The position numbers and the translations under genes are program-made. The notes beneath the pieces are model-generated. The model was not told the DNA's origin. It searched no databases and saw only the letters and a list, made by a program, of their open reading frames with translations. Shown piece by piece: positions 41,829 through 42,362 of a stretch of DNA of 64,000 nt. The stretch lies in the NCBI GenBank assembly GCA_030373145.1, contig JAUCZK010000009.1, forward strand, positions 1 through 64,000, in the 5' to 3' direction. Position 1 is the stretch's first letter; every line of letters begins with the position of its first letter. Source of the stretch: Cyanobium sp. CZS48M (lineage in GTDB: Bacteria; Cyanobacteriota; Cyanobacteriia; PCC-6307; Cyanobiaceae).

Positions 41829-41870
41829 GTCTCGACAGCTACAGAGCAGAGTGGGTCTGACCCGCATTGT
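41829..41870 (+). promoter_or_regulatory. NtcA-like site and -10 element upstream of glnB
   Basis: GTC-N8-TAC occurs at 41829-41842, one base off the NtcA consensus GTA-N8-TAC. After a 22-base gap, CATTGT at 41865-41870 could be a weak -10 (TAN3T-like) box. This spacing matches nitrogen-controlled promoters of cyanobacteria. The gene downstream is a PII protein, a known NtcA target. The site is inferred only from sequence. Confidence 0.5.
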
Positions 41871-41949
41871 TCGCAGGATTGCCCGCACGATCGGGGACCC
41901 CCGTCCGTGCTTCCATCACATTCACGTTGCTGTCCCACTGTCTTTCATC

Positions 41950-42288
41950 ATGAAAAAGGTTGAAGCCATCATCCGTCCAGTCAAGCTCGACGATGTCAAA
42001 ACGGCTCTTGTCGATGCCGGCATTATCGGCATGACCATCACGGATTGCCGGGGCTTCGGTCGCCAGAAGGGGCAAGTGGAGGTTTATCGCGGCGCTGAAT
42101 TCACCGTGGAATTCATCAATAAAGTGAAAGTGGAAGTGGTTGTCGACGACGACAAGGTGGACGCGGCCATCGAAGCCATTGCTGGCCCCTCCCGCACCGG
42201 TGAGATCGGAGACGGCAAGATCTTTGTGACCGCTGTGGAGAAGGCCGTGCGCATCCGCACCTCGGAAACGGGCACCATCGCCCTCTGA
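41950..42288 (+). CDS. glnB: PII family nitrogen regulator with altered T-loop
   Basis: The ATG at 41950 gives the standard 112 residues of PII. Signature regions: [33 protein letters not shown], and [20 protein letters not shown] (ATP-binding). PII binds ATP/ADP and 2-oxoglutarate and regulates NAGK, PipX and transporters. In cyanobacteria Ser49 is phosphorylated and Tyr51 is the uridylylation position in other bacteria. Here T-loop residues 42-51 read [10 protein letters not shown], so Ser49 is Ala and Tyr51 is Phe; Thr43 and Arg45 are Val. Lys58 and Gln39 are kept. It may be the main PII or a paralogue. Confidence 0.92.
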
Positions 42289-42310
42289 GCAGGCCCTCCC
42301 CCTCGCACAG

Positions 42311-42362
42311 GGGATCGCCGGACCAGTACGGTCTCTGAGACCACGTTGGTACCGGCGATCCC
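42311..42362 (+). terminator. Nested long hairpin between glnB and the next gene
   Basis: GGGATCGCCGG (42311-42321) pairs perfectly with CCGGCGATCCC (42352-42362), continued by ACCA/TGGT across a one-base bulge, and an inner small palindrome GGTCTCTGAGACC (42330-42342) closes the loop. It lies 22 bases after glnB and ends one base before the GTG start of the next gene. It is probably a terminator or attenuator, although no T-run follows. Confidence 0.65.

Follow-up and report, generated by a model that had tools for sequence, protein, structure and literature searches.

A second PII of Cyanobium sp. CZS48M as a putative GlnK that outlived its ammonium channel

The PII gene, its protein and its paralogs

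The stretch analyzed here (hereinafter the window) comprises positions 1 to 64,000 of the forward strand of contig JAUCZK010000009.1 in the assembly GCA_030373145.1 of Cyanobium sp. CZS48M, whose genome we denote G000. The locus under study contains a gene for a PII protein preceded by an NtcA-like site and a weak -10-like box, and followed by a hairpin and, in tandem, a gene for an SfLAP-family membrane protein (Table 1). Convergent to these is an operon for CO2 uptake (the cup and ndh genes at 43109-48197), which an earlier sequence-only reading of the locus had overlooked.

Table 1. Genes and sequence elements of the PII locus (positions in the window)
Feature	Position	Strand	Basis and remarks
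NtcA-like site GTC-N8-TAC	41829-41842	+	inside the conserved block TTCTGTYTCGACAGCTACAGAG
Weak -10-like box CATTGT	41865-41870	+	spaced 22 nt from the NtcA-like site; part of a second block of lower conservation
PII paralog, GlnK-type	41950-42288	+	112 aa; V11, V43, V45, R47, A49, F51 from translation; Pfam, tree
Hairpin, 52 bases, between PII and the next gene	42311-42362	+	no T-run; fold and pair count
SfLAP-family membrane protein, tandem with PII	42363-43100	+	PF11139, E 6.3e-28
cupS-like fasciclin-domain protein, convergent	43109-43510	-	PF02469, E 4.3e-35; name from operon place
cupA/chpY CO2 hydration protein	43543-44835	-	TIGR01964, 753.5 bits, cut-off 293.7
ndhD3-like subunit	44832-46313	-	TIGR01972 NDH_I_M, 386.5 bits, cut-off 263.8; '3' from operon place
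ndhF3-like subunit	46341-48197	-	TIGR01960 ndhF3_CO2, 683.8 bits, cut-off 588.7

The Pfam P-II domain (PF00543) covers residues 1-106 of the window PII with 101.9 bits (cut-off 25; E 2.7e-29), and the solved structures closest to it are PIIs (E 3.7e-44), which we take to be cyanobacterial. The T-loop is that of a canonical PII, GRQKGQ..YRG. The ATP/2-oxoglutarate pocket is presumably lined by G35-Q39, K58, G87-K90, R101 and R103; judged by eye from the translation, the window PII keeps all of these and the aligned solved PIIs are identical there, which agrees with the prior claim of retained ligand-binding residues. That reading had further listed four replaced T-loop residues, at positions 43, 45, 49 and 51. 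The translation bears out the absence of Ser49 and Tyr51 (A49, F51), and all four residues are as described, but V43 and F51 are the norm of the family rather than losses: F11, V43, R45 and F51 are common to all 22 distinct Ser49 PIIs of the family genomes, and we thus rejected the loss of Thr43 and Tyr51 as special traits. Across the 56 distinct Ser49 sequences sampled more widely, 35 combine F11, V43, R45 and F51, and 18 have T43 with Y51. The four replacements hence shrink to two, 45 and 49, to which we add the previously unnoticed loss of Phe11 (V11 in the window PII). Positions 11, 45 and 49 are accordingly what sets this protein apart.

In our PII sample, which was assembled from similarity searches with two query PIIs and is thus not random, Phe11 is present in all 56 distinct Ser49 PIIs and in none of the 45 distinct cyanobacterial PIIs without Ser49; the nine proteobacterial A49 PIIs sampled all have it, and Arg47 is universal (110 of 110 distinct PIIs). 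Phe11 of PII is described as touching NAGK (PMC6908673), and Arg47 as the residue with which E. coli GlnK plugs AmtB (PMC6243067). The Ser49 phosphorylation site is absent from the window PII and is replaced by A or T in all nine orthologs of the genus. The notion of an unmodifiable position 49 stands for the window protein, which has no Ser there, but A49 is not fixed, five of the nine genus orthologs having T.

Beyond the window PII, the genome encodes three further members of the PII superfamily (four genes in all): a housekeeping GlnB with Ser49 on contig C3, an SbtB on C26 beside the gene for an Sbt_1 bicarbonate transporter, and a 93-aa PII-like protein (PF00543) on C2 (L007:8982-9263), directly 5' of a gene for a GDT1 divalent cation antiporter (9285-9941). 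A gene similar to the last is found in 9/9 genus genomes, the GDT1 neighbor being known from G000. Among non-genus genomes, G113 has a PII-like gene with an in-frame TGA (C11:98162-98452). The window PII is 66% identical to the GlnB of the same cell (65-66% to those of the genus), and all nine genus genomes searched carry both types. Thus, the second, Ser49-bearing glnB that the sequence-only reading had suggested looking for does exist, and the circumstance it had set against its own view, a sole PII in close relatives, does not apply. The window-type gene is open in all nine genomes with 95-100% identity to the window protein (95-97% in the others). Together with the low dN/dS given below, this rules out that the window PII is a sole or degenerate PII.

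Window-type orthologs occur in 15 of 300 family genomes, namely the nine of the genus and six in the genera g37 and g48, which are 79-83% identical to the window PII; none was found in G132 of g48, a genome 80% complete. A search of the class at E 1e-44 matched one of 242 genomes, itself of the same family, at a threshold so strict that the window genome falls below it, making the count uninformative on the window type. Twelve sites vary within the genus, including site 11 (V in five, I in three, T in one), site 45 (R in five, T in two, V and S in one each) and site 49 (T in five, A in four), and residue 51 is Tyr in the three g37 orthologs. The mean dN/dS of the window type is 0.052, as against 0.016 for GlnB (36 pairs each). 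Hence, the window-type PII is kept under purifying selection in the genus, though amtB2 is absent beside it.

Upstream and downstream elements

NtcA-activated promoters carry a conserved site of the GTA-N8-TAC type, with a TAN3T -10 box some 22 nt downstream. As a bare motif, GTC-N8-TAC occurs in the window at chance frequency (4 found versus 4.02 expected). Across the nine genus loci, however, the 20-base bin that holds the copy upstream of PII (-120 to -101) has 17 invariant bases of 20, as compared to 0-4 of 20 in the bins between -260 and -141 and to 7-12 of 20 in the remaining ones between -140 and the start codon; the half-site is GTC in eight loci and GTT in that of G008. The downstream CATTGT fares less well: it does not fit TAN3T, and a consensus sigma-70 scan found no promoter at this region. 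Thus, of the site-plus-box combination previously pointed out, the site is conserved and the box is weak. Reading the site as a LexA-type box (CTGT-N8-ACAG) was discarded on spacing.

An NtcA-like site (GTN-N8-TAC or GTA-N8-NAC) also precedes amtB2 in 26 of 27 upstream regions. Measured from a fixed reference codon close to the N terminus of Amt, GTN-N8-TAC lies within an 8-base range, -121 to -128, in 24 of these 26, and the remaining two sites are at -148 and -150; eight loci have the perfect GTA-N8-TAC. In mononucleotide shuffles of the 27 loci, a mean of 8.3 (maximum 17) had a site and 1.06 (maximum 4) the perfect form. None of the listed NtcA-like sites upstream of amtB2 is followed by a TAN3T box at a distance of 18-32 nt. 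Control of the window PII by NtcA is thus likely on these sequence grounds, and would be nothing unusual at an amtB-glnK promoter; the "special control" once attributed to this element gives way to what looks like the usual amtB2-glnK arrangement.

The 52-base nested hairpin of the sequence-only reading is real, with a z-score of -3.9 against dinucleotide shuffles and -3.1 against mononucleotide shuffles, and in the predicted fold further pairs extend over the GTG start of the SfLAP reading frame. Elsewhere in the genus the scores are modest (-1.1 to -2.6, mononucleotide shuffles). The outer stem is kept in eight of nine genus loci, being absent from G003 (z 0.3), and the inner part forms one long hairpin in G000, G005 and G008 and two inner hairpins in the other five. 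Over the 8-row alignment 99.2% of the pair cells hold. Eleven pair cells have changed on both sides, a count reached by none of 500 shuffles, whereas 125 of the 500 reached the number of pairs with two-sided changes (four) and 439 the number of pair types, all counts that relatedness inflates. The hairpin matches no known RNA family in an Rfam scan, which returned nothing near the gathering score; a single weak hit (15.9 bits against a cut-off of 45) fell within the PII gene, on the opposite strand. Nor does it look like an intrinsic terminator, the scan giving none there and a single chance-level site at 42459-42480. Since it has no T-run and is placed against the SfLAP GTG start, it may instead be an attenuator or stability element. 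In G003, about 6 kb of extra genes (L134:3651-9776), MscS-like and patatin-like by eye, lie between PII and cupS, and both SfLAP and the hairpin are missing.

Linkage to amtB2

In all 33 loci of non-window type that we examined, an Amt sequence ends directly 5' of the PII gene. These comprise 28 readable family loci, retrieved with the Asn49 paralog of G002 and G005, plus L026, L027, L079, L089 and L127; four are partial, L210, L211 and L213 giving short, diverged C-terminal matches and L127 being cut by a contig end. Among the window-type PIIs, a second Amt gene lies directly upstream in three of the six non-genus orthologs (G044, G113 and G055), with Pfam Ammonium_transp confirming that of G044, and no Amt was found beside the gene in the other three or in any of the nine genus genomes. 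The sole Amt of G000, Amt1 on contig C5, is only about 32% identical to AmtB2. A second Amt lies elsewhere in G002, G005 and G006; in the former two it adjoins the Asn49 PII, and in G006 it has no neighboring PII. Specifically, in G006 (C40, L218:8611-11981) amtB2 is followed directly by an amino acid permease gene, with no glnK between, and the orphan PII is on a different contig, leaving the two halves of the pair apart. In G297, a further PII with a divergent T-loop (GRQRGYTEVYRGVTVESRLLPK; L216:1917-2252) is flanked by glnK and by a markedly different Amt gene.

In a maximum-likelihood tree of 110 distinct PIIs over 112 columns, whose bootstrap had not settled, the 14 rows of the window group (98/90) have as their sister the 31 rows of the Amt-linked group (100/96), and the joint clade of the two (99/96) is nested among picocyanobacterial GlnB. 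This shared clade and the 33 loci support a link to amtB that the sequence-only reading had not picked up. In the midpoint-rooted Amt tree, the three Amt2 linked to window-type PIIs branch near the Amt2 base, a position that co-inheritance with the PII would predict. They do not form one clade, so that amtB2 may have passed from one lineage to another and the tally of losses is uncertain; the fork uniting the other Amt2 is weak (77/32). If amtB2 is ancestral, parsimony, which is not proof, would have it lost at least three times (in the genus, in G089, and in G083 with G108) with the PII kept. Residual matches to the region that precedes amtB2 persist upstream of PII in G083 and G108 (51 bp at 80% and 53 bp at 81%), and before the window PII we recovered no convincing amtB2 remnant, the best match covering 19 bp of the opposite strand (E 0.004).

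Function of the window PII and its implications

On balance, we consider the window PII to be probably a non-modifiable, NAGK-blind, ligand-switched GlnK from an amtB2-glnK pair, whose channel is gone and which now acts on Amt1 or via heterotrimers with GlnB. Observed in its support are the Amt-linked clade, the joint loss of Ser49 and Phe11, Arg47, purifying selection, the conserved NtcA-like element and the single Amt of G000. Under this proposal, nitrogen shortage (high 2-oxoglutarate, NtcA) would raise expression of the protein, and its trimer would sense ADP/ATP and 2-oxoglutarate in the usual way. As position 49 offers no phosphoserine, only ligands would switch it, and on nitrogen return its Arg47 T-loops could block an ammonium channel immediately. 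Once AmtB2 is lost, the most plausible target would be the remaining Amt1, reached either by direct contact or within trimers mixed with GlnB. As it lacks Phe11, the protein is expected to be a poor binder and activator of NAGK and thereby to add channel control without control of arginine synthesis. The combination of no phosphoserine at 49, Arg47 and no Phe11 fits a ligand-switched channel role. In Synechocystis, phosphomimetic S49D PII is reported to bind Amt1 weakly (PMC6603209), and E. coli GlnK Y51A to still join and leave AmtB (PMC4274968). Against this proposal, the channel target is one that we infer, with no Amt beside the gene in the genus; residue 49 switches back and forth from A to T in close relatives, and a Thr there might conceivably accept a phosphate; as an NtcA half-site, GTC is imperfect; and a gene persisting without its channel could equally have a new target.

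The main alternative to a channel role is provided by the neighboring cup operon: after the loss of amtB2, the PII might have been recruited to carbon supply, controlling the adjacent high-affinity CO2-uptake complex NDH-1MS (NdhF3-NdhD3-CupA-CupS) or SfLAP much as SbtB controls SbtA. The cup genes lie downstream of PII in all 15 orthologs with a neighborhood read (nine genus, six other), SfLAP is in tandem with PII in eight of nine genus loci, and SbtB exemplifies a dedicated PII-like regulator of a carbon transporter (PMC4275256). We nevertheless regard this as improbable: the same order is seen in relatives whose PII has kept its neighboring amtB2, and may simply be inherited; PII/SfLAP and the cup genes are convergent; G003 has its 6-kb PII-cupS gap and no SfLAP there; SfLAP was not found in the PII neighborhoods of G083 and G089; and the promoter element resembles a nitrogen-type site. 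Like SbtB, the window protein belongs to the PII superfamily of regulators and neighbors inorganic-carbon genes. Its GRQKGQ..YRG T-loop, however, is that of a canonical PII, and it is the separate SbtB of G000, not the window PII, that adjoins the bicarbonate transporter gene. That a GlnK without a channel has become the dedicated regulator of the NDH-1MS CO2-uptake complex or SfLAP is quite improbable; if true, a canonical PII would couple 2-oxoglutarate directly to CO2 hydration.

A back-up PII, acting mainly in heterotrimers with GlnB and diluting Ser49 phosphorylation and NAGK/PipX binding with no channel target of its own, is unlikely, albeit deserving of some weight. At 66% identity to the GlnB of the same cell it belongs to the same trimer family, and site 45 we take to be on the face that meets GlnB partners. 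Sites 11 (PMC6908673) and 49 (PMC6603209) are placed on that face by the published work; yet the Amt-linked history suggests that the channel role came first, and the heterotrimers themselves are putative. A decaying, functionless remnant of the amtB2-glnK pair is very unlikely. Though amtB2 is gone, sites 11, 45 and 49 differ from one close relative to the next and dN/dS is roughly threefold that of GlnB, the frame is intact throughout the genus, dN/dS is still a low 0.052, and the promoter block and hairpin stem are conserved.

The window PII shares with the GlnK of the AmtB-GlnK pair of E. coli and others the PII fold and the Arg47 plug residue, and as a GlnK that has lost its channel it would also share an amtB-linked descent and a nitrogen-type promoter element; its A49 recurs in the nine proteobacterial PIIs sampled. 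It differs from E. coli-type GlnK in having F51 in place of the modifiable Tyr51 and in the absence of amtB next to it, and from the proteobacterial PIIs sampled in grouping with picocyanobacterial PII. With the cyanobacterial GlnB/PII of S. elongatus and Synechocystis it has in common the pocket residues and the family of origin, but it lacks Ser49 and Phe11 and is a second copy beside a normal GlnB. Second PII copies and amt2 counts in picocyanobacteria are already in print: glnB2 (CK_00041583) is given for 12 of 67 freshwater and 3 of 17 brackish isolates, and amt2 for 68 of 132 genomes (PMC9361551). The section of that paper on glnB2 does not take up T-loop residues, amt2 linkage or channel loss, and its cluster could be the window type or the N49 type. 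In the literature searched, with most subscription papers outside its reach, we found no account of the link to Amt, of the missing Phe11 or of the lost channel in these cyanobacteria.

The usual picture of PII in cyanobacteria is of a single GlnB that attends to Amt, NAGK, PipX and transporters together. Here, there would be a natural split, with a GlnK-type copy that is without phosphoserine and the Phe11-NAGK contact together and that, in some lineages, persists with no adjacent channel gene. This offers a clean natural experiment on how individual residues direct PII to particular partners and on how a GlnK behaves without its channel, a good if not startling test case for sensors changing partners.
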